The notes beneath the pieces were generated by a model, which was given only the letters and a program-made list of their open reading frames with translations, did no database searches and had not been told where the DNA came from. DNA of 64,000 nucleotides from Odontesthes bonariensis (Eukaryota; Chordata; Actinopteri; Atheriniformes; Atherinopsidae): positions 6,054,976 through 6,118,975 of the forward strand of contig NC_134527.1 of NCBI RefSeq assembly GCF_027942865.1, in the 5' to 3' direction. Made by a program: the position numbers and the translations under genes. Of the stretch, positions 6,425-61,911 are shown one piece after another. Every line of letters starts with the position of its first letter. Positions within the stretch are counted from its first letter, which is position 1.

Positions 6425-6695
6425 TCGACTTCATTTCTGACCTGGGCCTCTTCAAATCCAGGCTAAAAACCTGCTTATTTAGGATTGCTTTTAATACCCA
6501 GTAGTATGATGACACTTTTATCTTATTTTATCTTATTTTATCTTATTCGATGTTGTTGTTGTATTTTATTGCTTTCACTGTTCTTTTATTGTTTTTACTT
6601 ATTCTTCTCTTTATTTATTACCTGCTGTAAAGCACTTTGGTACACCGTAAGGATTGTCTGTAAAGAGCTGTATAAATAAAGTACATTTACATTCA
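6425..6695 (+). mobile_element. L2-type LINE 3' end
   Basis: The sequence runs from CTGGGCCTCTTCAAATCCAG through TTTAGGATTGCTTTTAATAC to AAAGCACTTTGGTACACCGT and a TACATTTACATTC tail. It is nearly the same as the 3' ends at 32690-32944 (plus) and 43245-43450 (minus), which are joined to recognisable L2-like ORF2 C-termini. This copy keeps only the last few ORF2 codons and the 3' UTR. Confidence 0.7.
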
Positions 6696-7239
6696 TCATT
6701 GGATCGGGCTGCTAATATTCTTAGCAAACGACATATGTTTCCATGACGACAGACAAACACCACCGTTGCCAAGTGACTGTCTGTATCCATGGAAATCTGG
6801 TGTGCGGAGGCACCTATTTTCTGGTATTTGTTGTGTTTGTGTGTTCCAGTTGCAAAAAGCTCCCCTGAAACAGCTTAAAACGGTGCTGTTGGGCTCCAAG
6901 GGAAGAGGATCACACGTCAGGCTGTAACAGGAGGAGACATTAATGCCATATGTCAAGTATGCCATGCATCATGCTGACGTGGATCAATGCCAGTACTGTG
7001 GGCATAATGCTTGGATGAGCTCTCTCACTCTCTCACACGATTTTTAAGGCTTTGCTATCACAAACTGTGTCACCCCTTTGTAAGAATTGTTCAGATACAC
7101 TTACCTCTGAAGGATGGTTACACTTCTTTTTAAAATTTTACTGTGGAGTCATGGTGGTGCAAGCTGAACTGACATAAAGACGAGTACAATAGCTTCACCC
7201 AGTGGTCAACTGGAGGATCTACGTCTTTTTGCAGTAAAT

Positions 7240-9838: not shown

Positions 9839-12800
9839 TTAGTCCAGCAAGCAGGTTTGTGCGATGGCCCTCGTCACTGCGTACGGGTCGCAGTTAGCTG
9901 CGGGGCGGCGGTCCTCAAAGTAGCCCCTCTCCTTCTGGCCCACCTGCCGGGGGATGCGGATGCTGGCGCCTCGGTTGGCCACTCCGGCAGAGAAGTCGTC
10001 AATGCTGGACGTTTCACAGTGACCCGTAAGACGCCTCATGTTGTCCTTGCCTTCCCGCGGGTCGTACACTTTGATGTGCTCTTTGTGTTTTTTGCTCAGT
10101 TTGTCAATCGCCTGCTCAATGTACCTGTTATCAAGTGAAAAGAGTTGGTTGCATTATGTCTAAGTTGAACAATGGCTGGAATAATTTGCTTCTTGCTTAC
10201 TTTAGATGTATTCATGAGTCACAATATGTTTCAAAAGAAGAGTTAACTCACTGCAGTCCTCCTTCTTCCCTCATCTGCAGAGTGCTGACATTTGTGTGAC
10301 AACCGGCCCCATTCCAGCTGCCACTTATTGGTTTGGGGTCTAGTGTTGCCACCACCCCGAAATCTTCACACACACGATGCAGCAGAAACCGTGCGACCCA
10401 CAGGTGGTCGCCCATCTTGATGCCCTCGCAGGGGCCCACCTGGAACTCCCACTGAAGTTAGAGGAGACAGAAGCAAAGTTAGGAGGGTAATATGGCAAAA
10501 AGACAAAGTCAGTCTGATTCCATGATCATAGCAAAGTGAGGAATGTTTGTTTGAGACACTACCTGAGACGGCATAACTTCAGCATTGGTGCCGCAGATCT
10601 TAACCCCGGCGTAGAGGCAGGCCTTGTAGTGGCACTCCATAATATCCCTTCCATATGAGTTGTTTGCACCCACCCCACAGTAATAAGGGCCTTAAAGTGG
10701 GGGACAAAACAGGAAGCTGGTAAGACAGAGTCCAAGCCAAACCTGAGCAAATACCACTATGTTTTCACAACAGTCACTTGGGGTCAGTGTCAATGTGCAA
10801 GTGAGTGATCGGGTCTAAGTAATAGATCTTGTTGATTTGTTAGTTAACGATGTCACACTGTAAAAAATGCCTCTCCAAAAATAAGTAAAAACGAGACGTT
10901 TTTGCTTGAAATAAGCAAAAAAAATCTGCCAATGGAACTAGTGAAAATCGGCTTGTCAAGATTCCTTGAAATAAGATGTGATATTTGGGACTTTTGAGAT
11001 AAAAGTGATCTTGAAATTAGCTTAAAAACCTCTTCAAATGTAAAAAAAAAAGCTTGTTTCATATGAAATCTGACTCAAAATAATTTGTTTTCAAGACCTT
11101 TTCATTTAACAAGATATTCCAGATGTATTGTCTTCCAACAAGTCCCTATATCTGGCTGAAATAGTACTTGTTAGGCAGTTGTGTCTTATATTAAGTGTAA
11201 TGAGATATTTTGACTAGAAATTAGACAAATATACTTGGTAAGACTTTGATTTTTTTTCCAGTGCAGATGAGGGATCAGGGATTTCTAAGAATTTGTCTGA
11301 AGTTTACAAAAATTGGGTGACAAACGATGAGACAAATTCACCTTGAGGTGCCGGGTATCCATTCGGAGGCCAGTTAAAAGGATGTCCGTCTACTCCCAAC
11401 AGCGTGTACTCCTGCTCCATACCGAACCACAAGCAGTGCTCTTTAACCTCCTCCATCACTTTGTTGCAGATTGCTCGGTGGTTGGTTTCTAAAAAGCACA
11501 GATAAAAGGCAGCACAACTCGTTTTTCCAGACCTTATCGGACAGGATTGCAGCAGAAAATGTGAACAGAAAGTGAAAAGAAAAAGTACCAGCAGGTAAGC
11601 GGTTGTATTTGAAGACCTCGCAGAGGACCAGTTTGTTGGGGTCGAGGGTGAACGGATCCCTGAACATGGAAACTGGAATTAGGTACATGTCGCTGTTGGA
11701 GCCTTCGGCCTGGTAGGTGCTGGACCCGTCAAAGTTCCACTCCGGGATATCTGATAATAATTGAAGAATAAACAGATGATCCATGAGCATCAAAGCATTT
11801 CTTCTGACGTTAAAACTAGATCTGTAAGATTCTGACGGGCACCTGAAGCCTGATTAAAGTCACTGATATCTCAGATATCAACACAGGCTCAACTGGAGAG
11901 GCAGAGGAGGGACAGAAAGAGAAAGTTAGGTACATTTAAAGGATTCATGTCAAGAAAATCCTCCAACTCTTAACCCATGCAGTTAAATCACTACTTTTTG
12001 TGGTTTTTATACAGTTTGTCAGTTAGTACGGTTATTTTGTTCACTGTGTAGTTTGAGTCCAAACTGAGTTTCCAACAGAGTACAATGAGAAGTGAAGCTT
12101 TAAATAATAGTGCCTTATTGTTCTGCTTACTTTATACATTAAGTGTTGTTCAGAATCTGTCCAGCAGATGTTTTAACACTTACTTGAAAGTTTTGGAAGG
12201 ACCTCAGGCAGAAATGTACTGTGTTAAGTGTGTAAGCGTGTGTGTATGTGTGTGTTTTTCATAAACACCCCACGTAGAAACTTTCAAATGACATCATCAT
12301 TTTTTGTTCCAAACAAACAACCTTTAATCTCTGGATTTAACGTCTCAGCTTTCCCGTTATTTACTATCTTAACAGATTTAGTTTAATATTTGCTAAAGGC
12401 CATGTCTCCCTTCCCTGTTTCTCAGGACCGGTTGCCCTGTGTGTTTTAGATGTATCCCTGCTTCAACAACAGGCTCAAAGCAACGGATCAACAACAGGCT
12501 TCTGCAGAACTGAAGGCTCAATTAATTTGTCGTATTTCAGCCCCCTCGTCTCCCCTCTCCATATCTTAAAGGATGTCCTAAAATGCACCCAGAGGAGAGA
12601 GGAGGCTTCCATGATTAGTTACAAGTCCTTCAATCGAAAGGAGTATATGGGTTGTTTGTTCAGACCCTTTCATACAACATATGAAGTGGTCTTATAAAGT
12701 ATCGGCCCCAGAGAGAGCAGAGGAAAAATATGACTCATTTAAGCATCTCCACAACCCTACCTAAGCATCTTTAATTACTAAACCTATCCAAGTGAAACGA

Positions 12801-15608: not shown

Positions 15609-16420
15609 TACACTGGAAAAAATGCCCCTCCAAAAATAAGTAAGAAAAACATCAAATACGAGACGTTTTTGTGTGAAATAAGCAAAAAAATCTGCCAATG
15701 GAACTGGTGAAAATGTCAAGATTTCTTGAAATAAGATGTGATATTTGGGACTTTTGAGATAAAAGTGATCTTGAAATTAGCTTAAAAACTTCTTTAAATG
15801 TAAAAAAAAAGCTTGTTTCATATGAAATCCGACTCAAAACAATTTGTTTTCAAGACTTTTTCATTTAACAAGATATTCCATAAGTCTTACCAAGTATATT
15901 TGTCTCATTTCTATTCAAAATATCTCATTACACTAAATATAAGACACAACTGCCTAACAAGTACTATTTCAGCCAGATATAGGGACTTGTTTGAAGACAA
16001 TACATCTGGAATATCTTGTTAAATGAAAAAAGTCTTGAAAACAAATTGTTTTAAGTCACACATCATATGAAACAAGCTTTTTTTGACATTTGAAGAGGTT
16101 TTTAAACTAATTTCAAGATCACTTTTATCTGAAAAGTCCTAAATATCACATCTTATTTCAAGAAATCTTGACAAGCCGATTTTCACTAGTTCCATTGGCA
16201 GATTTTTTTGCTTATTTCAAGCAAAAACGTCTTTTATTTGTTGTTTTTCTTACTTATTTTTGGAGGGGCATTTTTTCCAGTGTATTGTCTTCAAACAAGT
16301 CCCTATATCTGGCTGAAATAGTACTTGTTAGGCAGTTGTGTCTTATATTAAGTGTAATGAGATATTTTGACTAGAAATGAGACAAATATACTTGGTAAGA
16401 CTTTGATTTTTTCCAGTGTA
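15609..16420. mobile_element. MITE family A, inverted nested pair
   Basis: Two copies of family A are joined head to head. Arm 15609-15880 reads forward, and 16007-16284 is its reverse complement with a spacer of about 126 bp. The right part of a forward copy resumes at about 16281-16420 and ends CCAGTGTA. The simplest reading is that an inverted copy, missing about 20 bp of one terminus, interrupted a forward copy at AGATATTCCA. Confidence 0.75.
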
Positions 16421-20673: not shown

Positions 20674-23600
20674 TTATGCTTTCCTGACGATGCGCCCGCT
20701 CTTCCTCAGGTCCCTCGCCCCCCTGTTGGTCCTCACCGTCTGGCTGCTCGCCCTCCACACTCCCTGACAGACTCGGGCACTGATGAGGAGGTACAGAAGA
20801 ATTAACAGGAAGCCACAGCCTTACTCATTCTGTTTGGCAGAGTGACTAATCGACCACGCACCACACAACTTAATTAAAAAAAAAAAAACAGCAAGCATGA
20901 AAGCTAAATGAAAACAATAATGAGACAACTGGCTTCAAGAGGTTTCTTAGAATTCAGATCTCTTATCGGCATCAAAAAAAGTTTTGTTCTAACCACACCC
21001 AGATACTTTTATATTTCTTTTAAATTGCTCATAATGCCATTCAGTTACATTTTGGATAAGAGTGTGCTTACCTTTTCCCATCTCAAATCAAATTTATTTG
21101 TATAGCACATTTCATGTACAAAACAATAATACATAAAATAAAAGCATTGCAGCAGGGAAACATTAAAAATACATAAAAGAATATAAAGAGAAACAAATAA
21201 AACAATTTAAATGAATTTAAAAACAAGCAACAGTCGAGATAAATTCAAAGATATCGTGCAGATTTCATGCATAGACACATGAGAAAATAACTGTTTTTAA
21301 CCTGGATTTAAAAATGTCTCCATTTGGTGAAAGTTTAATCTCCACTGGCAGTTTGTTCCACTTGTTTGCAGCATAACAGCTAAATGCTGCTTCTCCATGT
21401 TTAGTCTGGACTCTGGACTGGACCAGCTGACCTGAGTCCTTGGATCTAAGAGCTCTGCTGGGTTTATATCCTCTAGACAGATCACAGATTGTAAACCATC
21501 AGCAGGCTTTTAAAATCTATTCTGTGACTGACTGGAAGCCAGAGTAAAGATTTTAAAGCTGCTGTGATGTGTTCAGATCTCTTAGTCCGGGTTAAAACTC
21601 CAGCAGCAGCGTTCTGGATGAGCTGCAGATGTTTAATGCTCTAATTGGGAAGTCCAGTTAAAAGAGCATTACAGTGATGGAGTCTACTGGAGATGAATGC
21701 ATGGAGGAGTTTCTCCTGGTCTTTTTGGGAGAGGAAACCTACAATAACCCTGTGCACGCAGCCAAAAAAGTCCTCCCAGTGGTCATGTGAAAAGGGAAGA
21801 ATGCCTTTTTTTAAATTCTAAGCTTCTGTCTGAATGTGATAGTAAAATAATCTACACCTTAATTCGTGATCTCAGGTAAATAAAACCTCAGATAAACAAC
21901 ATTAAATATCAGGGACTGAACAGCTAAGTACACCTTTACCGCATCCATAAGTGTGTGAATGGCAGCCAGGTGCTGCTGATCAAATGCACTTGATTAATCG
22001 AACGTCCGGAAGTGTGAACACCAACACAACAGTATGCTGGTTTAGAGCATTCAGGTGGGTGTTAACACAATGCCAAGGAGGAAACACACCGGCAATAATC
22101 TTAAAGAAGCAATAGTTGCCATAAGGCCATTTTAAAATAATCCGAGATCCATTTTTACACACTGAGAAAGATTATAACACAAGTGGAAAATGTTCAAAAA
22201 CACCGCATGTCAGAACAAGCACCATACCAACCCGAGCCTGGTTCTAATGCTGTATCAGGACCTTGAGAGAGCTGTACGGAAACAGCATTGTAAAGATGAG
22301 CTGGCCAATGTTGCTCCACCATGATGTGAGAGACTAATGATGCCATACAGAAAATGATCACTGCAATTTGTTCCTGTAAAAGGTGGTTCCACATGCTGCT
22401 GAATCATGGGATGGGCTCAGTAAATAATGACACAGAATGTGTCATGTGTGCATGTTTATCTGAGGTTGTGATTATCATCTAAAAACTCATCTGCATACTT
22501 CCAAATTGTATAATGCTTCAAGGTTTTTACCAGTAAAAAAACCCCCGTCATGACCCAATTTCAGAAGTGCTCTGCAGATTCAGAGCAGAAATCCTCTGCC
22601 AAGGTGCCATGGCTGATTTAGCTCAGAGTTAGGCAGCATAAATCAGGGTGCCTGAAGTGTAAAACTCCCCCAAAACACAAGCCTGACATGTTTTTTAATG
22701 CCCTTTTGTTTGAAAAGCCATTTATTTAAGGATCCAGTCTAATTTTCATTTCAAAAGTACGGCACTCCTGAAATTCATTCCACCTCCTCTGCTAAGCCTC
22801 GAGCTCTGAGCCCTGCCCGCTCACATGAATCCTGCCCGCTCACATGAATCCTGCCCGCTCACATGAATCCTCCTTGTGGAAATGTTCTGTTGTTAGCTGT
22901 ACCGAGGAGCGTGTTTCTTCCATCTACCACAGGCCTCAGAGGATGTAAGAGCCCAGTGGATCAACCATATTTGAGGGTATTGTTCCGACGCAGCGAGCAC
23001 TTTTCATCGGACTGTTTTAACAACAGTTCAACGCTGGACTGGACTGGAGACACTGAGCCACAAAGAGGGATCAGTTCCAACTCTCAGAGCCCGAACTTCA
23101 CATGAAGGAAACAGATAAAGACTGGGACAACATTACTTTGTTAACTGAAGCTTCCTAGTTGCAGTTCGGGCAGCTGTGAGGGTAAGGTGTGTTTTCGGCG
23201 TAACACTGGTCCTCTGGTCACACTCGTCGCCACACTACATATGTTTTTGAAAAAGATGTAGGTCTCAAAGTACAAGTGTTTGATCACTTTAACGAGGATG
23301 AGTCGCTGCCGGTCTCATCAGAAGGACAGGGTGGAGCACTTGCCAAGACTCCACCCTGAAAACAGACTGTTAGCAAAGAGGTGCCAAACAGAGACAGACA
23401 GAGGCGCTGTGCTTAAACCAACCATAATAATAATAATAATAATAATAAAAACTTTATTCATCACGGAGGGAAATTCAGCAGTGTTCAACAACAGAAACCT
23501 AAGTTAAAGTGAAATATATTAACTTAACAGCTTAACTAAAAGTAAACAAACAGTAAAAGGAAAAACTTGAGATAAATCATATGAAAACGGAAGAACTTGA

Positions 23601-24908
23601 GTGAAAAGGACAAACTTAAGATAGACCATTGAGTACTTGCTTGATAATTGATAGTCCGGTGCAGTGTAGATCGTTTAAAAGTCAATTTATCCAATCCAAT
23701 TTTATTTATAAAGCACTTTACAACAACCTCAGTTGACCAAAGTGCTGTACAAAAAATTAATAAAAAGAAATTTAAAAGAATAAAATACAAGAATAAATTA
23801 AAAGGCACAAAACAGCTATATAATTTAAAACAATAATAATACTAAAAATAGCAATTTCACATTTCAACATCTCACATCGTGTCAAAAGCCAAGGAGAAGA
23901 GATGTATTTTAAGATGAGATTTAAAACACAGACAGAGAGGAAGCCTGTCTGAGAGGCAGATTGTTCCACAGTTTAGGAGCTGCCAATTTATTTCAATAAG
24001 AATTGTGCTAAATTATTAAAAAGGGCATAAAATGTCACCTTTGATTGTTCTTCAGATAATGCTCAATGACCATATCTAACCATCTTCTTTTTGCCAGTTA
24101 GATTCAGTTTGCTTTCCTTTCTGCTGACAATGATTTTGATCTCACATGTGGCACTTTATTTCAGGAGAAAATCGTCTTTGGACTTTGAGTCTGTGACCAC
24201 AGATGGTCCATCTTAGCTAAATAATTCCTCACCAACAGCCCCAGGTCTACACTGGAAAAAATGCCCCTCCAAAAATAAGTAAGAAAAACAACAAATACAA
24301 GACGTTTTTGCTTGAAATAAGCAAAAAAATCTGCCAATGGAACTAGTGAAAATCGGCTTGTCAAGATTTCTTGAAATAAGATGTGATATTTGGGACTTTT
24401 GAGATAAAAGTGATCTTGAAATTAGCTTAAAAACCTCTTCAAATTTTAAAAAAAAGCTTGTTTCATATGAAATCTGACTCAAAACAATTTGTTTTCAAGA
24501 CTTTTTCATTTAACAAGATATTCCAGATGTATTGTCTTAAAACAAGTCCCTATATCTGGCTGAAGTAGTACTTGTTAGGCAGTTGTGTCTTATATCAAGT
24601 GTAATGAGATATTTTCACTAGAAATGAGACAAATATACTTGGTAAGACTTTGATTTTTTCCCAGTGTATGTGATGCTTCTCGATTTAGTTTTATTTCCTA
24701 ATCTGTGATTAATTCAGTTAAATCTCATTCAACATGTAATTAAACAGAACAGACTGAATGAGCCCGCAGCTACACACCTGGAGCGCAGCAGAGGTCCAGC
24801 AGCGCGTTTGCGGGGTTTGGCGCTCTGTCTCCGGTACTGCATCAAGCCGCAGAACAGCTCGTGCGCGATCATCACGTACAGCAGGAAGATGAGCACGGTG
24901 GGATCCAT
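20674..24908 (-). CDS. Putative small single-pass membrane protein (two exons, unrecognised)
   Basis: Exon 1 (24908-24778) opens with ATG and encodes a hydrophobic segment, MDPTVLIFLLYVMIAHELF. A basic stretch (QYRRQSAKPRKRAAG) follows, and the exon ends in phase 2 at TCCAG|GTGTGT. A candidate second exon (20779-20674) follows a pyrimidine-rich acceptor (CTCCTCATCAG|T). It continues in the required phase as SARVCQGVWRASSQ, then a basic Arg/Lys-rich tail to a TAA. The joined frame is 78 residues: one N-terminal membrane helix and a strongly basic remainder. Both exons lie in locally GC-rich DNA. I do not recognise the family. Exon 1 is fairly convincing from its CpG-rich promoter, ATG and donor. 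Exon 2 is tentative, because a chance phase match is one in three and another frame there is also open. Confidence 0.42.
21080..21780 (-). mobile_element. Retroposon (LINE/SINE-type) in minus orientation
   Basis: It begins with an AAATCAAATTTATTTGTATAG box, the reverse of the ACAAATAAATTTGATTTGAT tail at 28690-28725. Next come an A-rich stretch and a repetitive body (GTTTGTTCCACTTGTTTGCA, then AGCATTACAGTGATGGAGTC). The same body type is widespread in fish genomes. No intact protein remains. Confidence 0.55.
21925..22430 (+). mobile_element. Tc1-like DNA transposon remnant
   Basis: Plus-strand words ATGCCAAGGAGGAAACACAC and CTTAAAGAAGCAATAGTTGC translate as a Tc1-like transposase start (MPRRKHTGNNLKEAIV). 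Stop codons follow soon after. It is the opposite orientation to the copies at 1-640 and 17190-17690. Confidence 0.65.
22814..22870 (+). repeat. 19-bp tandem triplication
   Basis: The unit GCCCGCTCACATGAATCCT is present three times in a row without change. No gene is associated with it. Confidence 0.8.
23690..23990 (-). mobile_element. Retroposon 3' end in minus orientation
   Basis: CAATTTTATTTATAAAGCAC and CAAAGTGCTGTACAAAA are the reverse complement of a LINE tail. They precede an A-rich stretch and a body that includes GTTCCACAGTTTAGGAGCTG. An (ATA)n run at about 23427-23448 with ACTTTATTCATC lies just upstream and may be the tail of a second element. Confidence 0.5.
24248..24668 (+). mobile_element. 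MITE family A, copy 3
   Basis: A complete copy of about 420 bp with nearly perfect terminal inverted repeats (TACACTGGAAAAAATG at left, ATTTTTTCCCAGTGTA at right). It lies 110 bp downstream of the first exon of the putative small membrane protein gene, inside its intron. Confidence 0.8.
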
Positions 24909-31000: not shown

Positions 31001-34000
31001 TGGGATCCTGTGAGCATTTTAGTTTGATTTGTGGTATCATGTGGGCACTTAATTTTGTGTGCATTTAGTTTTTTTAATACTTTGATTGTAGTTTAAATTT
31101 CTTTATTCTTATCATAGTGTTGTCCATTGGACAATAGGACTGAAAAAAAATATTTTATTTATCCCAGAGGGAAATTAAATGTTGATGTAACTCAATTAAA
31201 TCAAGGAGTTATTATAGATGCTGATGGCTGTGGGCAGGAAAGATTTCCTGTAGCGGTCCGTTTTGCATCTAAACTGAAGAAGCCTTTGACTGAAGAGACT
31301 CTGTTTTCCGATAACAGTCTCATGGAGAGGATGTTCAGGGTTGTCCATAATTATGGTACAAGTTGTGACTGTCCTTGTGAGGAAGTATGTTCCTGAGCCC
31401 AGTTGATCTTTTGCAAGTGTGGATGTGCACTTTAATACACCTCGAAATAGATTAAAACAACTTGTACTGAATTTGATTCATGACTCATCCTTTTTTGCAT
31501 TAAGAAACTGAAAGTATTTAAGTAACTTTTACTCAAATTACATTTTAAATGAAGTAATTTTGTACTTTTACTCAAGTAAATTTTGAGATGGGTAATTTTA
31601 CTTTTACTCTGAGTAGAATTTAGGCAAAGTAAAGATACTTTTACTTAATTAAAATTTTTCAATACTCTTTCCACCTCTGCTGCTGAGCTGCAGTCGAGCC
31701 GGCCGTCTCCTTAAAGGACGCGGGCTGATATGAAAGTTATCTATAGCGCTGTATAAAACTTATATATTATTATCTCTACAAGACAAACAAACTGCGAACA
31801 CATAAAACACATATAAACAGGGGCGGACTGGGATGAAAAAGTGGCCTCGAAAACCATCGGTAAATGAACTCATCTCGAGAAAACCATAAAAAAAAGTTTT
31901 TACATACCACGGCCGCTCTGGGCTTCCGTAATATTCAGAGTAGAATTTGAGACTTCAGTTCTTACTTAAATCTGTGGCTTCCTTAGCGCAGTTGATGCCG
32001 ATCGTGTATTCAATGTCATCCAGAGCTACAACACCTGACGTTCCTTTGATTCCTTCAAACACAATCTGTTCACAGCAAACACGAGACGACAGCACAGACA
32101 GCAGTTGTGACATTTGTGTCTGAACACGCATGCACTAATACATCCAGATGACTGCACAGCATGGACGAGACGCAGAAATCAAACAGAGTCAACGAGGTTC
32201 AGTGTTTTGTCCGACCTGGTACTCCTCAGTCGATGTGATGTTGACATCGAAGCGTCTCCACGGAGCCCGCAGCTCGCTCACGTCCAGCAGCTGATGGAGA
32301 CGACCTCCCGAGAGTCTCCACACCTTCAGCTGACTGTCGGCTGCATTGTGGAGAAAAAACACGACGCGTCTCACACACAGGCGAGCCACACACTTGAAGT
32401 CGATTTTCAACATTCATTCTGTTCTTAACTCCCTCCGTTGGCTTCCTGTCCTTTATAGAACTGATTTTAAACTTTTAATGTTTGTTTTTAAAGCTCTTAA
32501 CAGCCTCGCCCCATCATATTTATCTGAGCTTTTAACAGTCCGCAATCCTGGTAGAGCTCTGAGGTCAACAAATTGATTTTTGCTGGAAGTGCCCAGGTCA
32601 GAATACAAACCCTGGGGTGAGCGAGCCTTTTCCCAAAGCTGCCCCCAGGCTCTGGAATAAGCCCCCCGTCCAGCTGCATCTTGTTTCTGACCTGGGCCTC
32701 TTCAAATCTAAGCTAAAAACCTACTTATTTAGGATTGCTTTTAATACCCAGTAGTATAATGACACTTTTATCTTATTTGATTTTGTTGTATTTTATTGCT
32801 TTCACTGTTCTTTTATTGTTTTTATTTGTTTTTACTTATTCTTCTCTTTATTTATTACCTGCTATAAAGCACTTTGGTACACCGTAAGGATCGTCTGTAA
32901 AGGGCTGTATAAATAAAGTACATTTACATTTACATTTACATTCTTACACGAGTCGGGTTTGTAGGCCCAGAATCTCAGACAGGTGCCTTTAGTCGGAGGC
33001 AGGTGAGGGCTCAATAGCTGAGCATTTTCATTGGCTGCCGTCCTATTGCTGCTTGGAAAGAAGAGGAAGTGGCCTGAGGGGAAAAAAGAAAAGGAATGCA
33101 CTCATTTAACCTGAAGCCCAAAAAAAAAAAAACAATCCCTGTTGCTGCTTGTTCGCTGGCTCACCTTTTTCTGTGCCCAGAGTATGGTCTCCAGCCGGGG
33201 TGGGGTAATGCCGCTCTTCTTCCTGACTTGTCCGCTCCCAGTCCAGTTTGTCTACATTAGCGTTCTGAGTGTTGGTCCAACTGCACATCCCTCTCTCCAG
33301 GCTGCACTTGGAGTCTTAGATTGTTAACACAACGAAAATGGATAAAAACATAAAGTAAACGCATCTGTATGTTGTTGTCAAGCTCTACTGGTACAGCTTT
33401 GCTTCATATACAAACCACTGAATAATGTCTCTAAATATGGCTTTCTGTGTAATTCGTTCATTGGACCAGTAACTGACATTTCAGTGTTGCATTGCATTGC
33501 ATTGTGTTCACACCATGCTTTTATATTTATACTCAAAACCAGTGCAATAAAATGAGAGTGGGTAAAACACTAAGACCCATATTTCAACATTTAACCTCAC
33601 ATCCCCAAAACAAGGACAATTCCCACTACACTTTCCATAATGCCACTCAGTATAGTTTTATCCTCGGCCATCTATGTGGTGCAAATGTCAATATTTCCAA
33701 ATCTCACTGACCTGTAACAAAGGCTGTGTTCGAAATCGCACACTTCTCATACTACTCATACTAACTTTTTGAGTTAGTATGCGAGTTTGAGTAAGCAAGA
33801 AGTTCCCGGATGCATACTAGATTCTCCGAAATGTTGGGTATGCATCATGAGGTTACTACTCACACTCAAACTACCCAAGATGCAACGTAACGTGACCTCG
33901 CCGATCGTCATTTCCTGTCAAAACGGCAGTTTCAAGCTAGCTACAACGAGGGTAGGTTCACTTCCTGTTTTCAAAACAAAAGCACCAATTGTATCCTAAT

Positions 34001-43000: not shown

Positions 43001-43620
43001 TGCCTTTCCAACAACATTTCCAGACATGTTATTAGACTTTTTTCCCCCTTGTTCGCCATAAGTCTTGTATTACAGTGTAATCTGTCAGCGCATAATGACG
43101 TTTGATTTCTCACCACAATTCCTCTCATCAGTCCCATCGCCGCAGTCATCGGTGCCATCACAAACCTGCCGCTGCTCCACGCAGCCCCCACGGGAACAGT
43201 TCACCATCCCTTCTGGGCACACTTTCCCAGGAAGTGGTACTGATGATGTAAATGTAAATGTATTTTATTTATACAGCCCTTAACAGACGATGCTTACGGT
43301 GTACCAAAGTGCTTTACAGCAGGTAATAAATAAAGAGAAGATTAAGTAAAAACAAATAAAAACAATAAAAGAACAGTGAAAGCAATAAAATACAACAAAA
43401 TCAAATAAGATAAAAGTGTCATCATACTACTGGGTATTAAAAGCAATCCTAAATAACATTTGCACAAATATCATCATAGTACAATATAATGTAAATTATC
43501 CATATACCCCATATTTTATCCATATACCCTATATTTCTTATTGGTTCAGTCTGCTCAGTTAAATTTATTTTTACCTTTATTGTTAAATGTACAAATCTGT
43601 TTTTATTTAGTTTACTGATG

Positions 43621-43661
<41 letters not shown>

Positions 43662-43829
43662 TATTATTATTTACCCTACTCTTCATACTGTAGATTTGTA
43701 TATAGCTAATGTTTATTCTCTGTTTTTACTCTATTCTATTTGCTTGTTTTTTCTTTAATTGTCTACATATCTTTTATACTGTACGCTGCTGCAACACAAT
43801 AATTTCCCAAATTGGGATGAATAAAGTAC

Positions 43830-43913
<84 letters not shown>

Positions 43914-46900
43914 AGATATATATATAAAAATAAGTAGGTTTTTAGCCCAGATTTGAAGAGGCCCAGGTCAGAAATAAGACGCAGCTGGACGGGGAGCTTA
44001 TTCCAGAGCCTGGGGGCAGCGACAGAAAAGGCTCGGTCACCCCAGTGTTTGTATTCTGACCTGGGCACTTCCAGAAGAATAATGATGTCATGAGAAAAAT
44101 AAACCACATCACATTTTTGTGGCTCTGCAGTTTTAATGGTCAGAAATGTTGCTTCATACTGATTTATTTGTGATTAATTGCTTTTGGGGCTCGATAGATG
44201 AATGAAACGGTGTAAGATGAGGAGGGACTCACAGGGCAGAGCACAGTCTAGAAACTCCAGCTGGTCTATGGCCACATCTCCTCTTCGTCCCTCTAAGCGC
44301 TGCGAGTGAAGACGGATTCGAAAGGTTGAAGGAACGCGGCCAAGGAAGATGGTGTCTTCCTTCCAGCCACGAATAGTGGAGGCCTCGGGACGCCAAACTA
44401 CGGCCTCGTCAGAGTTCTGGTGAAGGATGGATGCCCACAGGGGGGCAGAGCCCAGACCTGTGTGACCTGCGATGTAACAAATATTTCACTGGGAAGCAAA
44501 ATTACATTTACACAAAAATGGTTGGTATAGTTTGGAAAATGTGTTTAAAGTTGTGCGTTAACAGTTCCGAGGAGCAGGTAACTGCAGGCTGTGTACATGT
44601 GTCGTTACCTGAGTCCCACAGGAAATATCTGAGACGCAGACGGCAGGTTGGTGCAGACTGTTTCATCTCGGGAGAGGTGAAAACTGCACTTTTCAGAGTC
44701 TCTGCCCTCACCGCACTCACTGCCATGAACCAACCTATATGACGAGGAAATAATAAAAGCTAACTTTTACATTTCAGCCTGTTAAAATTGCAGCATCAAT
44801 TAAAGGTGGGGTAGGGAATCTTTTTCTGGAACATTTTTTTACATATTGCTTGAAATACTCTTCACACCCCCATTGCAACCAATTAATTAAGAGTTGACAA
44901 AAATATGAAGACTCCTTAAAGAAAGCTTGTCTAAGAGGGTTCAGGCTGTGTTGGAGAATAAAGGTGCTCAGACCAAATATTCACTTTAAAGCTACATAGA
45001 AATGAACAAAGTCTGTTTTTGCCATAAAACTATTTAATTTTTCCTTAGCAACTTTTAAAGAAATCCCATTTGGCTCAAGATTTTTGTACAGAACTTTAAC
45101 TTAACAATCCATCATCCTTCTTTTCTTCTGATTCGTGGAGATACATGTTCCAACTAAACTCACAGTCGTGGAGAAATCAACGACAGTGACAATCACTCCA
45201 TGCTCTGTACACATGGCACAGGAAAACATCTCATATTTGCATGGAGATTTAATTAGGAACCCGCACAAAAATCACTGACTGTTGTATTTAAAGCAGTGGT
45301 TTCCAAAGTTAAAGCTGTCCTGCAGGTTTTAGATGTTTCCCTGCTTCAACACACCTGATTCAGACGGAACGGATATCTTCAAAATAATGTTAAGTCCTGC
45401 ACAAGCTTGCTAATGATGCATTGATCTGATCTGCAGGCGTGTTGAAGCAGAGAAACATCTAAAACCTGGACCGGATGTGGACATCCCTGATTTAAAGCAA
45501 AGATTCTCCGGTCTCCATTTAATGTCCACTTAATGACCAGTACAGAGCACTGAAGAATATTTGGAAGAAAGATGCTTGAACTACCAAATAAATCCTTCTT
45601 TCACCTATTTTATGACATTTAGACACAAAACGAAAAAGAAAAAAAACGACTTGATTGATCCTTTGGCATTTACAAAGAGAATAAAAACACCTTACGTTAC
45701 CTGTGGCTGTGCCGGTGGTGTAATCAGAAGATGGCCCGCTGTCAGGCAGCACGTCCCCTCTCTGAAGTCTCTTCCAGGTGTACGCTTCACTCGAGGACTG
45801 GTCAGTCCATCCACACATTCCTGCATCCTCAAAGTCACACTGAAAAGCGTTTCCTCTGTGGCCTTGAAAGGGTTAACAATAAATTCTCAACTGTTTGTGT
45901 AACCAGCACTAAAAGCAGATCTAACCAGGGAACGCTTAACTAACTGATAAACATCTTTAGACTCACCACAGTCTTGCTCATCACTGCAGTCAGAACAATC
46001 ACACACAAAGTCACATTTCCCTTCAGGAGTCTGACACCGTGGAGCCCAAGAACCGGCAGCTGAACCAGGGACGAGATAAAAGAGAAAATTGATTGTTTTG
46101 ATTACCATGACTACCATGCACATGTATTTCCTGATGATGGCTGAGATGTGTGCATGTGAGAGCATGTGGACTGTGAGTGGCCATTTAATATCAATTGGTG
46201 TCTTTCAGGTAAGAAAATAACAGAAAAACCTAACGAATGTAATGTTTTGAAATCAGCATCCTGATGTGGAGTAACTTCAGCCATCACACAACAGTAATAA
46301 TGTAAAAAAAATACTGTATTTCATATTGACAGAAGAAATCTGAACATCTTTGCAACTGAAGATTGCATAAAATCTCACAGATGACTCAGCCTCAAGCTCT
46401 CCTATCAGGGCGCTTTACCATCAAAGATTTACGACACCAACCGGCTCAAAGGCCAGGGAGAAATAATCCTGTAAACGTCAGCTAAATGCCATCCGTCCAA
46501 CCAAAGGTCTCTGATTAAGGCTCAGGATTTTGTGCTTTAATGGCCAAACAGTCGGAATTTATATGTGACATCCGGTACCGGATATTTCCACACTTCCAGA
46601 GTACATCTTCCTTCCTCCAAATACATAAATCATGATCATAGTCCAGAAAACAAGATAAGAACAAAAAAAAGGGGTAAAAACTGCATGTTTGTAGTCAAAT
46701 GCAAACACATACATTCTGTCTATAAAATGTTCTCATGATGTTCCTTTAAATGTGAAATATGGAAAAGATGGAGATGATGTGATCCAAGTGGTGGAAACAC
46801 TTGGATCTGAGTGTGAGATCAAACAGAACAGTTTGTTAAAAAGATGGTGAGGACTCAATTTTTTTTCTCCCTTATTTGTTCGTGCGAGCAAACTTTTGAA

Positions 46901-48935: not shown

Positions 48936-49185
48936 TCAAACTAATTACCCCGTCAAATCAAAGGCTTCTTTTAAAATAGCCTCCTAAAACCTGAGGGTTT
49001 CAGGAAAATTTTAAACTCTGCATTTAGCACTTTTATTCCTCGGCCTCTGAAAAAAACTCAACACATTCAATAAAAACCATTTGAGTGGTTAAACCTTCAT
49101 TTTTTAAATTTTTTTTTACCATAAATGATGGACTTTGCTCTCATATTTATCAATACCTAAAAATAATTGAAAATGTTGATACGAC

Positions 49186-49653
49186 GCCAGGCCAATAGGC
49201 GGTCTCGACCTGTGGGATAGGGGATGAACTATGGGAGATCTACCATATTAATGAAAGAGAAGAAAGTCAAAAGGTACGTTGTCATTTATGTCTTTTTTAA
49301 ACACTTGGCCATAATCTTTTACTTTATTATAGAAGAGCAGCGGAGTTATGTCGCTAAAATAAAGTAAAAGATTACGGCCAAGTGTTTAAAAAAGACATAA
49401 ATGACAACGTACCTTTTGACTTTCTTCTCTTTCATTAATATGGTAGATCTCCCATAGATATTCCCTATCCCACAGGTCGAGACCCCCTAGTGGCCTGGCG
49501 AACTTCCGTTGTGTTTTGAAGTTTGCAGCGTTTCTGTCTTGCATGTGTTTTGATGTTTGCAGTGCGTGTGCTCCGGTCATTTTTCTCTTGCAGCATTTTA
49601 CTGTTGGATTTGTTTCGCCGTTTGCAGCGCGTTTGCACGTGTCGGCCACCGTA
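49186..49653. mobile_element. Foldback element, truncated copy
   Basis: The palindromic core (49200-49490; TACGTTGTCATTTATGTC pairs with GACATAAATGACAACGTA around a centre near 49345) is nearly the same as 60240-60550. To its right is one short arm with fewer than three 34-bp-type units (TTTGCAGCGTTTCTGTCTTG). The terminus GTTTGCACGTGTCGGCCACCGTA follows. The left arm is missing except for GCCAGGCCAATAGG. Confidence 0.8.
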
Positions 49654-50153: not shown

Positions 50154-52149
50154 TCAGTAGCCTTCATTGTCCCAGGTGACCTCGTAATCTGGGTACCGAG
50201 CCTTCAGCTTCTCGGTGCTCACGGCGTGGTTTGCTCTTCCAAATCCCTTGAATGAAAATTGAAATCTTCCGTCAGAGGCAGAAATTAACATTTGATTCAC
50301 GAAAAAACGAACAAACGTGCAACATTTTCCTCACACATTTGAAGCCAGTTCAGTTTTTATTCGGCCGGGTTCTCTTACCATGGAGTACCCGTAGACGTGG
50401 ATCTTTTTGGCCTGTGGATCGTGTTTGATCCTCCCTCCTCCAACACACTCGCAGTCCAAGTGGCCGCCCTTCTCCAGCTCCTCTGAAACCTTCTCATAGA
50501 TGTCAGCTACCAGAAAGAGACGCACAAAATGTCAGCAAATACAGTGCATAAACACTATGTTTTCAGAATACTTTCTTTCTTTTAAAGAGGCTGATAGCTA
50601 CTTGGAAAAAAACTGAAGACTCGATCGCTAAAATACAGTCTTGTGTTGAAAATGAACAAATCTAAATTTTTGAAAGTTCCTGTGGAAGATCATTTAAACA
50701 GACGCTTAGCGTTTTTAATTTACCTTTTCTGTCTGAAATGTAACATTATTTACTTCCAGTGACACAGATCAGCCAGGTTCTTCAAACCTACATCAGTTAA
50801 ATGAGTAATATTGATTATCGCCCTATGTGGTGCACAAATTAAGGAGAAAGTGAACTGTCAGCATATGTGTTGGAAGCAGGAAAAATGAGCAATGTCTGCG
50901 TGACCAGGACAAAGTCCAGATGGTGACGACATCTTTACGAGGTAGAGAGACAGGATCTTGAACTTGGTGACACGATCCATCCATCCATGCATTTTTCTGT
51001 TCAGACTTCTTTTTGTTCAGGGTTGTGCTTGTTAAACCCAACACGCTGGTCTTTAGACTGCGGAAAGAAACCAGATCACCCAAAGGGAACCCATGGGTCA
51101 ACATGCAAACTCCTCCCAGAAAGGCCCAAGCAAGCAGGCAGGTTTGAACTGTAACGGTTTAGGATCTGGTCTTTAGGGGTGCCCAGCCTCCAGTGCTCAC
51201 AGAGGCACATTATTTCTCACTAATTGAGGCAAACTAGTACATTTATCAATTTTGGAGCCATATTAGTTTTGCTTTGAGTAGTGTTTTCCCCTACAACATT
51301 CAATTTTGACCTCTTCATTTCAAAAGACTGTGGCTCGACAGGGATAACAGAGATCCTGGGACAAATATTGAAGATAACTCGACATTTATTTTGGGAGTAA
51401 AGAGTTAAAACAAAAACAAATGCTAGAAAATAAATAAAATGGTCACTAAAATAATGCACCCTTGAGCAAAAAAAAATGTGTTTTTGCTTAATATATTTTA
51501 AAAATGTGCTGAGCCAGGGGGAGCCGAGCTATCTCACAGTGGTGCCTTGGCACCACTAAAAATACCCTAGCCTCGCCCCTGATTAAAACCCCCATGAGGG
51601 AATGAGTTGTGGAAGGGTTACTCTATGAGCAGTGAAAGACAAGTCAGATAGTCCAGTCAGGCTTCATTGAAATATGGGAAATGACCAAAATGTTTTGAAC
51701 ACATAGTTCTTGGGGTTCTCTGAGGATTATGTGGAATATGGAGCTCTCCTTCAAGGACTTTTTCTCTGCGCGCCTTCACACCTCAGATAGGAAGTGATGC
51801 AGCCAGCAGTGGTAGACAAGTCCTTCTGTGTTTTGTTTAGGTTTTTTAAGAGGCTAATATTAAAAGCTGCTGTTTGTATAGAAGATATTTCACAAATGTT
51901 TGCAAGTTTCTTTTTAAGAATTGCAGATTCAAAGCCATGTAACCCCACTGAACTTGCATTTGACACGCGCATTCGTGTCGGTGACATGTTTTGAGGGGAT
52001 ACTCCGGACTCACCGTGGTACTCAGCCCAGCCGAACCCTCGGACTATATCCACCTCCGAGTCGTCTCCCTCTTCCCGGCTATGGACTCTGATCAGGACGT
52101 ATTTAAACACTCCGGACGGGTCAATGTCTGCCTGGGGTATGTTGGCCAT
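50154..52149 (-). CDS. phpt1: 14-kDa phosphohistidine phosphatase (complete, three exons)
   Basis: A small cytosolic enzyme that removes phosphate from phosphohistidine in proteins. Exons: 52149-52014, 50506-50379, 50246-50154; phases agree; 118 residues (human 125). Sequence landmarks: [33 protein letters not shown] with the catalytic histidine (residue 45, equivalent to human His53), [24 protein letters not shown], and the C-terminus [16 protein letters not shown]. Intron 1 splits the codon just after the active-site His. ATG 52149 ([10 protein letters not shown]) was chosen by alignment with family length; in-frame ATGs upstream (52179, 52221) would add up to 24 residues. PHPT1 also neighbours MAMDC4 on human 9q34.3. 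Confidence 0.95.
50900..51180. repeat. Interspersed repeat in phpt1 intron 1
   Basis: CATCCATCCATGCATTTTTC and GTCAACATGCAAACTCCTCC with CCAGATCACCCAAAGG belong to a frequent fish interspersed repeat. The 93-codon minus frame over it (50823-51104) is not a gene. Confidence 0.5.
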
Positions 52150-52677
52150 GAGAGCCGCAGCCTTCGTCTGTGTGCACATCTCCAAACTTCTCAGCAGCCA
52201 CACAAATAATCCAACCAACAACCCAAAGGCTCGTATTTTTCCGAAAAGCTCCGTGTTTCTCTACGTAGAAAGGGCGTCACAGAGCTGTAAAAGAAAGCAG
52301 TTTATCTCCTGCTGAAAGGAGGCATGTGCTCTGTGCAACAATAAGCACATTTCCGGTTTGAACTTCAGAATAAATTACAATGAAAACACGGAACTTCGCA
52401 TTGTCTTCGAATGGTATGATACGTATTCTCTTGACTCTAATAATTAATCTCCAAAACGATAAGAAACTATATTATATTACACATAGCAGTAAATGGTTTC
52501 GCATAAAGTTTTTTAAAAAGGAAAAAAAACAAAGCACCTGCTTTTATTTTAAAGGCAAAACAATCAGAGCGGAAGCTATGAGAGGAAATGCACCTTTTCT
52601 ATGAAGGCATGCATTCTGGTAGTTGTAGTCCAAATGACAACGGTAGAGCCGTACAGGAAGCGTGGCTGGTTTTAAAC

Positions 52678-57100: not shown

Positions 57101-57107
57101 TAGTTTA

Positions 57108-57478
57108 AAGGGGAACTGCGGTATTTTCAACATTAAGCCTCTTTTCTGAGTCGTCTGCAATGTTTTAGAACCCCCCTCACCGCTTTTTTGATGTTTACTC
57201 CCATCTCCGGTATTTACCTAATTTTGATTCTTCTCAACCTGCTTCAGAACGGCAAGTCATGCGCATGTCTAGAAAGGTCCGTAAAAGCACCATAAACGTC
57301 CGTTTTCAAAATCATCAACTCACCGGAGTGGTTACTGGTGGCAGGTTGAGAAAAATCAAAATTAGGCAAATACCGGAGACAGCAGTAAACATCAAAAAAG
57401 CGGTGAGGGGGGTTCTAAAACATTGCAGACAACTCATAAATGAGGCTTAATGTTGACAATACCGGAGTTCTCCTTTAA
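57108..57478. mobile_element. Hairpin MITE with long TIRs
   Basis: About 370 bp with inverted arms of more than 90 bp. The left arm AAAGGGGAACTGCGGTATTT ... TTAGAACCCCCCTCACCGC pairs with the right arm GCGGTGAGGGGGGTTCTAA ... ATACCGGAGTTCTCCTTT. The 63-codon frame inside (57259-57450) runs along the arm and is not a gene. Confidence 0.85.
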
Positions 57479-58074: not shown

Positions 58075-61000
58075 CTAGATGGGACTTTCACCACCTTCTT
58101 TCTTCCTCCCTTTTTGGAGTCGACGCAAAGTAAGGACCGGTGCCGCGGCGAGAACCATGACAAAGAGCGCGATGAGCATTCCCCAGGCTCCCGGCGTCAG
58201 GGCCCTCCGCAGCCCGACTTCTTCTGCAGGCAGCAAACTGCTCAAACTCAGCATGTAGCCAAGGGCCCAACCCACTGAGGTGTCGCCAGCCTGAAGGAGC
58301 AGCACAAACATGTTGATACACTGAACCTTTATGGATTTCTTTTTTCAAAGTAATATTTTCTATTTTGAAATGTGGTGAGTGACCTTTTTCTGGAAGGAAA
58401 TGCGTGGGAATGACGTGTCATTGAAACCGTATCCTCTCAGGATGAGAGTCATGACAAACACAGAGGAGGCACAGTAGTCCTGCAAACGAGACTTTTGAGC
58501 TGGGGCTTGAAGCATCATCTGCAACACAAGCCAGAATGTTGTTAAAATGACAAATAATTAAAAAAATCCTAAATGATGCTCACCTGTCTAAATGTACGTG
58601 GATGCAGTCTGGAGTGTACCACCAGAGGTGTAGTGAATAAATAGAGACCATTACTTGACTGAAACTCAAGTTGCACACTGATTTGGCTGCTTCCTCCAGC
58701 TGTCGCGGCGTGCTCACGGTGATCCCGGTGATTTGTTGCAGGAAGGAGTGAATGTAGAAGAATGCAGAAAATGCCTGGAAATATAGAAGGGAGAAAAACA
58801 AAACCTTGGTCATGGGTAATTCAAATCATGCTGAAGGTGATCCAGTACGGTGGCCGACACGTGCAAACGCGCTGCAAACAGTAAAACGCTGCAAGAGAAA
58901 AATGCGGCAATCACAAAAACGACCGGAGCACACGCGCTGCAAACCCCAAAACACATGCAAGAGAGAAACGCTGCAAACATCAAAACACATGCAAGAAAAA
59001 AATGCGCTGCAAACATCAAAACACATGCAAGAGAGAAACGCTGCAAACTTCAAAACACATGCAAGAGAAAAATGCTGCAAACTTCAAAACACATGCAAGA
59101 GAAAAATGCTGCAAACTTCAAAACACATGCAAGAAAAAAACGCGCTGCAAACATCAAAACACATGCAAGAAAGAAACGCTGCAAACTTCAAAACACATGC
59201 AAGAGAGAAACGCTGCAAACTTCAAAACACATGCAAGAGAGAAACGCTGCAAACTTCAAAACACATGCAAGAGAAAAATGCTGCACACTCAAAACACATG
59301 CAAGAAAAAAACGCTGCAAACATCAAAACACATGCAAGAGAAAAACGCTGCAAACATCAAAACACATGAAAGACAGAAACGCTGCAAACATCAAAACACA
59401 TGCAAGAGAAAAACGCGCTGCAAACTTCAAAACACATGCAAGAGAAAAACGCGCTGCAAACTTCAAAACACATGCAAGACAGAAACGCTGCAAACTTCAA
59501 AACACATGCAAGAGAGAAACGCTGCAAACTTCAAAACACATGCAAGAAAAAAACGCTGCAAACATCAAAACACATGCAAGAGAGAAACGCTGCAAACATC
59601 AAAACACATGCAAGAGAAAAACGCTGCAAACATCAAAACACATGCAAGAGAAAAACGCTGCAAACATCAAAACACATGCAAGAGAAAAATGCTGCAAACT
59701 TCAAAACACATGCAAGAAAAAAACGCGCTGCAAACATCAAAACACATGCAAGAGAAAAATGCTGCAAACTTCAAAACACATGCAAGAAAAAAACGCTGCA
59801 AACATCAAAACACATGCAAGAGAAACGAGCTGCAAACATCAAAACACATGCAAGAGAGAAATGCTGCAAACATCAAAACACATGCAAGAGAGAAACGCTG
59901 CAAACCCCAAAACACATGCAAGACAGAAACGCTGCAAACATCAAAACACATGCAAGACAGAAACGCTGCAAACATCAAAACACATGCAAGAGAGAAACGC
60001 TGCAAACATCAAAACACATGCAAGACAGAAACGCTGCAAACATCAAAACACATGCAAGACAGAAACGCTGCAAACATCAAAACACATGCAAGACAGAAAC
60101 GCTGCAAACATCAAAACACATGCAAGAAAAAAATGCGCTGCAAACATCAAAACACATGCAAGACAGAAACGCTGCAAACCCCAAAACACATGCAAGAAAA
60201 AAAATGCGCTGCAAACTTCAAAACACAACGGAAGTTCGCCAGGCCACTAGGGGGTCTCGACCTGTGGGATAGGGGATGGACTATGGGAGATCTACCATAT
60301 TAATGAAAGAGAAGAAAGTCAAAAGGTACGTTGTCATTTATGTCTTTTTTAAACACTTGGCCGTAATCTTTTACTTTATTATAGAAGAGCAGCGGAGTTA
60401 TGTCGCTAAAATAAGGTAAAAGATTACGGCCAAGTGTTTAAAAAAGACATAAATGACAACGTACCTTTTGACTTTCTTCTCTTTCATTAATATGGTAGAT
60501 CTCCCATAGTCCATCCCCTATCCCACAGGTCGAGACCCCCTAGTGGCCTGGCGAACTTCCGTTGTGTTTTGAAGTTTGCAGCGCGTTTCTCTCTTGCATG
60601 TGTTTTGATGTTTGCAGCGTTTCTGTCTTGCATGTGTTTTGATGTTTGCAGTGTTTCTGTCTTGCATGTGTTTTGAAGTTTGCAGCGCATTTTTTTCTTG
60701 CATGTGTTTTGATGTTTGCAGCGCATTTTTTTCTTGCATGTGTTTTGATATCTGCAGCGTTTCAGTCTTGCATGTGTTTTGATGTTTGCAGCGTTTCTGT
60801 CTTGCATGTGTTTTGATGTTTGCAGCGCATTTTTTTCTTGCATGTGTTTTGATGTTTGCAGCGCATTTTTTTCTTGCATGTGTTTTGATGTTTGCAGCGT
60901 TTCTGTCTTGCATGTGTTTTGATGTTTGCAGCGTTTCTGTCTTGCATGTGTTTTGATGTTTGCAGCGCGTGTGCTCTGGTCGTTTTTGTGATTGCCGCAT

Positions 61001-61911
61001 TTTTCTCTTGCAGCATTTTACTGTTGGATTTGTTTCGCCGTTTGCAGCGCGTTTGCACGTGTCGGCCACCGTAGTATTGGGCTATGTGGTAGTTTATTTC
61101 CCTGCTGGGACCAGTAATTTGTTGTATTCTTCACTGGTTGACTGGAAACAGAACACGGTCAAGGAATTGGATTGATGACCAGCTTTTATAACCCCCCAAA
61201 ATTTAGAAAGACTAAAAAAGATTTTTTAAAAACACCCAAAATATTTGAAAATACTGGTATGGGTTAGGATCTGATTTTTGCTTTCGTGGCCAAAATCATG
61301 CACCATAAGGATACTATTGCGACATCTACAGAAAACTTGATAGAATCAAATTGCTAAAACACCAACATTATTATTATTATTGTTTAGTTGTTTAATTGTT
61401 TTAATTTTTAATTAATTGTTTGTCCTACTACTTTGAGGGAATCATTTCATTCCAGTCAAACACCCAATTATCACCTACAGGAAACATCTTTTGTATTTTA
61501 CATTCACTGTGCAGGGTAGATTGTATTAATGTTTCGTACATATAGATACAAACGTGGTAAAGGGGAAACACAAAGATTACACACAGATTAATTGTGTGCA
61601 TAAAAGTCGACCTCTAGTTTGTGATGTGATCTCTCTCTTACCATGAAGCCACCGGTGACACTCGGTTGAAAGACTTTGTCGAAGGAGCACTGCGAGAAGG
61701 GACAGTTGTTGAAGGAGAACATCTCGGACACATTCCCCAGGCAGTGCTCATAATGTCCGCTGCCTCGTACCGTAATAGAAATCTGAGGGTCGTAGGAGCC
61801 GGGCCTGTGCTTTGCTGTGCACGGTGAGTTGAATATACTGTCCATTTTTAATTCCTTGCTGTGGTCCGCGGGATAGCAGGGGTGACTGACTGACTCTGAG
61901 TAACCTTGAGA
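58075..61911 (-). CDS. entpd2: Ecto-nucleoside triphosphate diphosphohydrolase, C-terminal four exons (partial gene)
   Basis: A plasma-membrane ecto-enzyme that hydrolyses extracellular nucleotides. Exons: 61911-61642 (SQGYSESVSHPCYPADH, then CSFDKVFQPSVTGGFM), 58774-58655 (AFSAFFYIHSFLQQITG), 58518-58384 (MMLQAPAQKSRLQDYC, YGFNDTSFPRISFQKK), 58290-58075 (AGDTSVGWALGYMLSLS, second membrane helix MLIALFVMVLAAAPVL, basic tail, stop). All are in phase 0. The junction FMAFSAFFY is the ACR5 region and GWALGYML the pre-helix signature. The cysteines and the FQKKA.DT.VGWALGYML block resemble ENTPD2 more than ENTPD8, and ENTPD2 is a 9q34.3 neighbour of MAMDC4. The N-terminal half (ACR1-4) lies beyond the right edge. 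The intron between the first two listed exons contains the large foldback element. Confidence 0.88.
58950..60222 (+). repeat. 34-bp minisatellite, left arm
   Basis: The unit is CTGCAAACATCAAAACACAT followed by GCAAGAGAGAAACG (34 bp). It has a few recurrent variants: ATCAAAA/TTCAAAA/CCCAAAA, GAGAGAAACG/GACAGAAACG/GAAAAAAACGCG. Adjacent units often share variants, which suggests stepwise tandem expansion. Confidence 0.9.
60560..60965 (-). repeat. 34-bp minisatellite, right arm (inverted)
   Basis: The same unit on the minus strand (TTTGATGTTTGCAGCGTTTC, TGTCTTGCATGTGTT), about 12 copies. Variant types match those of the distal part of the left arm (GACAGAAACG and GAAAAAAATGCG). Confidence 0.9.
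61080..61640. other. Ecto-NTPDase intron, nothing recognised
   Basis: AT-rich intron sequence with no exon-like frame. Confidence 0.4.

Follow-up and report, generated by a model that had tools for sequence, protein, structure and literature searches.

A foldback transposon family with tandem-repeat arms of variable length and IS3EU-like ends

Foldback elements whose arms are made of tandem repeats are already known. The TU elements of sea urchins have inverted arms, an outer tandem-repeat domain, an inner domain and a middle segment, and combine 15-bp units with 8-bp target duplications. Galileo, a foldback of the P superfamily from Drosophila, makes 7-bp duplications and has other termini than the family reported here, where the duplication is of 6 bp and the ends read TACGG..CCGTA. 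Unequal repeat number within a copy is known as well, as Galileo is described with long, internally repetitive inverted ends, with a repeat number that is not the same at both ends of a copy (PMC3573991), and with sites for its THAP-domain transposase mapped in the tandem repeats (PMC3688188). It differs from our family in its P-superfamily transposase and in its unit, for which the F group is given about 210 bp (PMC3573991), against 34 bp here. Tetris, from Drosophila virilis, is presented as an apparently non-autonomous foldback with arms composed of a flanking block, tandem repeats and an inner domain, and as sharing end portions with a MITE; its 8-10-bp duplications and units of about 220 bp set it apart (PMC4079207). 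Likewise, the Mutator/foldback element Tm1 of root-knot nematodes is described with composite inverted ends, a variable number of 13-15 bp units and MITE-like members, while its 9-bp duplications and its ends are different from ours (PMC3169594). Foldback arms have been described in more than one superfamily, namely P and Mutator.

The ends of the present family resemble those of IS3EU/GingerRoot elements, for which TAYGG..CCRTA ends and 6-bp duplications are described. IS3EU termini are reported to be always TA..TA, usually with 6-bp duplications (PMC10045372), and fungal IS3EU elements to combine TAYGG..CCRTA ends with a 6-bp duplication (PMC12730594); a table covering four teleost genomes has a single IS3EU entry (PMC4746887). 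No foldback or tandem-repeat-armed IS3EU element appeared in the literature searched, a search confined to papers, and the one paper containing both terms, IS3EU and foldback, used them in unrelated places; the family may be catalogued in Repbase or Dfam. The present family stands apart in the superfamily to which its ends point, in its 34-bp unit and in how widely copy number ranges.

The element was met in a window of 64,000 nucleotides, by which we mean the whole stretch of DNA analyzed, and this copy (W1) is organized as follows:

58846..61073, plus strand: whole foldback element, copy W1, 2228 bp, TACGG...CCGTA, without a 6-bp target duplication
58846..58876, plus strand: left terminal inverted repeat
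58872..58936, plus strand: left sub-terminal block, 65 nt, without 17 nt present in the right block
58937..60226, plus strand: left array, 37 full 34-bp units (20 sequence types) and a core-junction unit
60227..60384, plus strand: left half of the palindromic core
60385..60405, plus strand: unpaired spacer AAGAGCAGCGGAGTTATGTCG, 21 nt, found within 0-2 edits in 39/39 copies
60406..60563, minus strand: right half of the palindromic core
60564..60965, minus strand: right array, 11 full units (6 types) and a core-junction unit
60966..61047, minus strand: right sub-terminal block, 82 nt
61043..61073, minus strand: right terminal inverted repeat

The inverted ends of W1 start TACGGTGGCC, and the string TACGGTGGCCGACACGTGCA occurs at 58846(+) and 61073(-) with zero mismatches, whereas 100 shuffled versions of the window gave a mean of 0.00 matches. 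A preliminary description of this DNA had proposed inverted termini of at least 20 bp; 31 nt match at the two tips, after which 17 nt are missing on the left and the match resumes into the first units. Of the bounds proposed there, 58845..61073, the end was correct and the start should be 58846. Its count of about 37 forward and 12 reverse units was essentially right, as direct parsing gives 37 full units and a core-junction unit on the left and 11 full units and a junction unit on the right. TRF detected a 34-bp period in both arrays, counting 39.6 copies in the left one (58870-60227) and 11.6 in the right one (60563-60967), and it also detected the 140-bp higher-order period of the right array. 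Among 15 lags tested, units resembled each other more than after shuffling at lag 4 for the right arm (fraction 0.008) and lag 2 for the left (fraction 0.017), and the only such signal relied on is the 140-bp higher order of the right arm. Between the arrays lies the palindromic core that had been noticed before, 337 bp if only the portion inside both arrays is taken (60227-60563), with inverted arms of 183 nt (60202-60384 and 60406-60588) that are 98% complementary around the 21-nt spacer. Taken as RNA, 60202-60588 gives a fold of -344.9 kcal/mol, as compared with a mean of -95.35 (sd 6.02) in 100 shuffles; such RNA is predicted to be an almost unbroken hairpin, and a hairpin transcript is physically possible.

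A search of the source assembly (945 Mb, 187 contigs; the window is C27:6054976-6118975 there) with the core, as the preliminary description had proposed, returned 405 first-look candidates, some of which may be one place counted twice because the core is a palindrome. The best 40 of these were scored, and all 40, spread over many contigs, matched the core at 96-100% identity. We read 39 of them (37 fetched and the two in the window), the 40th having fallen between fetched stretches. Core divergence from the consensus averages 2.3% (range 0.9-5.9%) in these 39 copies, figures that are biased low, for age and for uniformity, as the copies read come from the 40 most similar to W1. The 21-nt spacer is present in 39/39 copies (23 exact, 13 with one edit and 3 with two), from which it follows that the palindrome formed once, before dispersal. 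The family is probably young and non-autonomous, with at least 40 copies and probably hundreds, and seems to carry no genes. In 12 of the 39 copies no clean end was found on one side within the stretch read: one end is missing in seven copies (L010, L011, L012, L016, L020, L038 and W2), and in L013 and L015 the array extends past that stretch. The other three of the 12, L021, L028 and L031, share flanks on contig C4, where the unread 40th candidate also lies, which points to local duplication rather than independent insertions. A scan of 335 kb (fetched stretches and window) for the 18-nt end, allowing up to 3 mismatches, gave no extra ends beyond the counted copies with two exceptions, the right end of L013 itself and an end in L031 that is consistent with the unread neighbor.

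Both ends, each within 5 edits of the 34-nt tip, could be placed in 27 of the 39 copies, and these two-ended copies were used to determine the target duplication. A perfect 6-bp duplication flanks 23 of the 27, with two more matching at 5/6, while W1 (2/6) and L035 (4/6) have none. Pairing the left and right flanks of different copies gave 0.00 perfect matches, and no perfect duplication of 7, 8, 9 or 10 bp was found in any of the 27. The duplicated bases lie outside TACGG...CCGTA and follow no fixed sequence, so the TA target site proposed in the preliminary description does not hold. Its reading of W1 as a mobile element is borne out, since other genomic copies share the core and the termini and carry target duplications: the family has dispersed as one unit, with 6-bp duplications. 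Dispersed copies with target duplications are what is expected of FB-type foldback elements, and so are long inverted arms of tandem repeats around a small middle, which are long in W1 and short in many other copies. Across 65 arm tips the TACGG type (signature TAYGG..CCRTA) recurs, a few tips having point changes, and TA stands at nearly all ends. The first 22 nt of these tips diverge by 2.4% and the stretch at 35-105 nt by 4.0%, a comparison in which picking tips by closeness to the end favors low tip divergence.

Altogether, we consider it probable that W1 belongs to a young foldback family with IS3EU-type ends that was mobilized in trans and whose arms expand separately. The palindrome and its 21-nt spacer arose a single time, in a founder, where one end of an ancestral element would have been duplicated in inverted orientation. 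The founder would then have been spread by a transposase supplied in trans, presumably of IS3EU type, which would recognize the TACGGTGGCCGACACGTGCA ends, act on the first 16-22 nt and make 6-bp staggered cuts. Within each arm, the 34-bp unit may expand and contract by slippage or unequal exchange, array change being faster than core mutation and accompanied by some copying between arms. By analogy with Galileo, the unit would be a putative secondary binding site, repeated along the arm, and would reinforce recognition of the ends; this role may be the most likely one, a passenger role being about as likely. A bolder version, which we regard as rather doubtful, holds that an IS3EU-type transposase drove the family, that the arms are self-expanding arrays of binding sites so that the strength of an end varies from zero sites to nearly a hundred, both from copy to copy and from one end of a copy to the other, and that copies recombine or hybridize, leaving products like W1 without a duplication.

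Variation of arm length among copies, which the preliminary description had suggested mapping, is extensive, from no units to at least 98. In the 27 two-ended copies, arms measured to the spacer span 232-2904 nt, with a median of 422.5 nt, of which about 158 nt are the core half; 17 of the 54 arms reach 600 nt or more, and in 8 of the 27 copies the two arms differ two-fold or more. Copy L013 has an arm of at least 98.4 units opposite an arm without units, L017 has 27.6 and 69.6, and L039 has 75.6 and 2.9. The lengths of left and right arms are uncorrelated (Spearman 0.03, P 0.89, 27 copies), and copies with similar cores are not more similar in arm length (Mantel rho 0.016, P 0.44); core divergence is not significantly related to arm length either (P 0.11 for total length and 0.40 for the longest arm). 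Since the two arms are not correlated and do not track core relatedness, arm length changes fast, and in each arm separately. These correlations used lengths in nucleotides, as strict parsing drops units bearing indels and gives lower counts than TRF. No significant bias in the number of parsed units was found between sides in the 27 copies (right more in 17, left in 8, equal in 2; Wilcoxon P 0.15). In L040, which was retained among the 27, fuzzy matching finds just 3 units in the long left arm, and other DNA is probably present there.

The two arms of one copy seem to exchange sequence. Nearest-unit distance is 2.31 edits between arms of the same copy and 2.77 between mispaired arms (P 0.003) in 11 copies, those in which 3 or more units could be parsed in each arm, and 21 mirror-image core variants were observed where 9.7 were expected. 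In addition, the whole sub-terminal block is absent from five arms. Four of these lie to the same side of the spacer and the fifth to the opposite side, an outcome expected from exchange or flipping, or else from a second independent deletion.

That the 34-bp arrays are functionless, a neutral by-product of slippage-prone sub-terminal sequence with minimal ends sufficing for mobility, has in our judgment only slightly less than an even chance; this concerns the binding-site step alone and is compatible with the rest of our main reading. The five arms without a sub-terminal block occur in two-ended copies, four of which (L032, L034, L037 and L042) carry a perfect duplication and the fifth (L033) a 5/6 match, and because such arms, with few units, are found in copies with duplications, long arrays are not required. 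Passenger arrays would also agree with the shortness of many arms, as the median indicates, and with an arm length that follows neither relatedness nor age. On the other hand, each arm of the 27 two-ended copies has at least one unit by fuzzy match, the junction unit possibly being counted. Moreover, the 34-nt unit retains two nearly constant blocks around a variable dinucleotide in 540 units, although these units were selected by likeness and homogenization would also explain the constant blocks. The preliminary description had contrasted MITEs, with their usually unique TIRs, with the arms seen here, which extend by tandem repetition and are unequal in copy number; this is known foldback architecture.

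Regarding the superfamily, the ends and the length of the duplication are the features that would place the family with IS3EU/GingerRoot. Neither the 7-bp duplication of P-superfamily foldbacks such as Galileo nor the 8-10-bp, mostly 9-bp, duplication of Mutator/foldback elements such as Tm1 was found in any of the 27 two-ended copies. A different transposase could have mobilized the same family, with TACGG being coincidental. Dada elements, for instance, make duplications of 6-7 bp. Some hAT groups make 6-bp duplications, hAT6 being described with this length (PMC12730594). Neither a transposase nor an autonomous copy was recovered for the family. However, TACGG..CCGTA together with 6 bp is the combination published for IS3EU, and an unrelated hAT6- or Dada-like transposase is in our opinion unlikely.

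It is scarcely credible that no transposon is involved, W1 being a minisatellite inverted by local rearrangement or an artefact of assembly. Inverted repeats and arrays are indeed difficult to assemble, a target duplication is missing from W1, and contig C4 carries a few copies that seem to be duplicated locally, but for the family this explanation is refuted by the recurrence of identical ends, core and spacer in dozens of locations and by duplications in 23 of the 27 two-ended copies. The core in 39/39 copies, on many contigs of chromosome size, also argues against a local artefact of assembly, while exact array lengths rest on the assembly. A TA-inserting element, Tc1/mariner-like or similar, for which TA at nearly all ends would speak, can be practically discounted, as the six bases outside the TA are duplicated in 23/27 copies and the TA is therefore the element's own end, lying inside the element and not serving as the whole target site.

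The preferred reading, a trans-mobilized foldback family with IS3EU-type ends, must also accommodate W1 itself, in which the ends are intact and the flanks, ATCCAG and GTATTG, match at 2/6 positions, without a target duplication. ENTPD2-like exons matching residues 258-344 and 337-381 flank W1 on the minus strand, and the ecto-NTPDase intron proposed previously holds; judging from these positions, the exons appear to be consecutive. Together with the size of the assembly and its contigs of chromosome size, this ENTPD2-like gene points to a bony fish as the probable host. As W1 sits between exons of one ENTPD2-like gene, gross rearrangement there is unlikely. Given the missing duplication, W1 is most likely either a hybrid from recombination between two copies or an insertion whose flanks were altered afterwards, a conclusion that we hold loosely. 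In the left array, unit types of the right arm make up 6/8 of the core-proximal units and 1/29 of the distal ones (P 8e-5, with the split picked post hoc), and recombination between two nearby copies would account for both this pattern and the missing duplication. Two results weaken the recombinant reading: with the array cut into equal halves, as was done for the remaining copies, W1 gives P 0.088, and 1/8 of the other long-armed copies reaches P<0.05.

Individuals may differ structurally at this locus, as a long palindrome of near-perfect symmetry within a gene intron is a candidate for such variation. The family as a whole represents a natural series, with one core, zero to nearly a hundred units and known insertion sites, and is suited to asking whether repeat number alters mobility, instability or silencing. 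A foldback with IS3EU-like ends would represent a further case of convergence and would point to repeated sub-terminal sites as a solution reached commonly.

Some minor observations on W1 can be added. Long open stretches run through all three frames on the plus strand of the array; coding sequence was set aside, since the 34-bp unit is merely free of stops. The core half contains ATG...AAAAGGTACGT, resembling a start codon and a splice donor, and we make no claim of an exon, motif counts being affected by imprecise cutting of the arms. Rfam at gathering thresholds gave zero matches in the window, scans of viral contigs with the core pattern and with the unit pattern gave 0 matches each, and a literature search with sequence strings of the element gave one match, which is unrelated. 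Compared by eye, the first 34 nt of the outer sub-terminal block look like a diverged unit, and the arms thus seem repetitive nearly to the tip.

The window holds a second copy:

49185..49653, plus strand: copy W2, with core, spacer at 49333-49353 and a right arm of one full unit and a junction unit, without a left arm

With the left arm absent, W2 has no duplication to score. A TACG at its left was considered as a kept end and rejected, the left flank being TGTTGA and the right flank GGAAGC; as the left flank does not repeat the right one, the left arm was deleted or exchanged. The terminal repeat is found also at 49653 (-), where it forms the right end of W2.

Extreme arm asymmetry was observed in L013, a copy of the foldback family read on a contig of the window's own assembly (G000 C15:2123191-2130518), in which one arm carries at least 98 of the 34-bp units, with the array extending past the stretch that was read, and the core is joined almost directly to the terminal repeat on the opposite side. 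Moreover, four core copies of the same family were found within 24538435-24564987 of contig C4, three of them at a spacing of approximately 3.75 kb. Flanks are common to all three of the four copies that were read, which indicates local duplication of the element-bearing stretch.

The window itself also contains the following features:

57105-57478, inverted repeat of 374 bp
15609-16420, 10850-11263 and 24248-24668, repeat family with ends like ACACTGGAAAAAAT
32583-32935, 43246-44074 and 6434-6699, additional dispersed repeat
51751-52260, minus strand, match to the Janus/Ocnus family (PF05005 in Pfam, E-value 6.9e-10)
22812-22871, perfect tandem repeat, 3.2 copies of a 19-bp unit
43831-43913, perfect TATC microsatellite of 83 bp

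Set against its reverse complement, the 374-bp inverted repeat shows 79% identity, and it looks like an older hairpin MITE. The ACACTGGAAAAAAT-ended family, which is separate from the foldback family, has an inverted structure inside and approximately 88-98% identity across aligned pieces of its three places in the window; it is probably a MITE. Identity among the places of the additional dispersed repeat is 82-97%, and the PF05005 match probably represents an exon.
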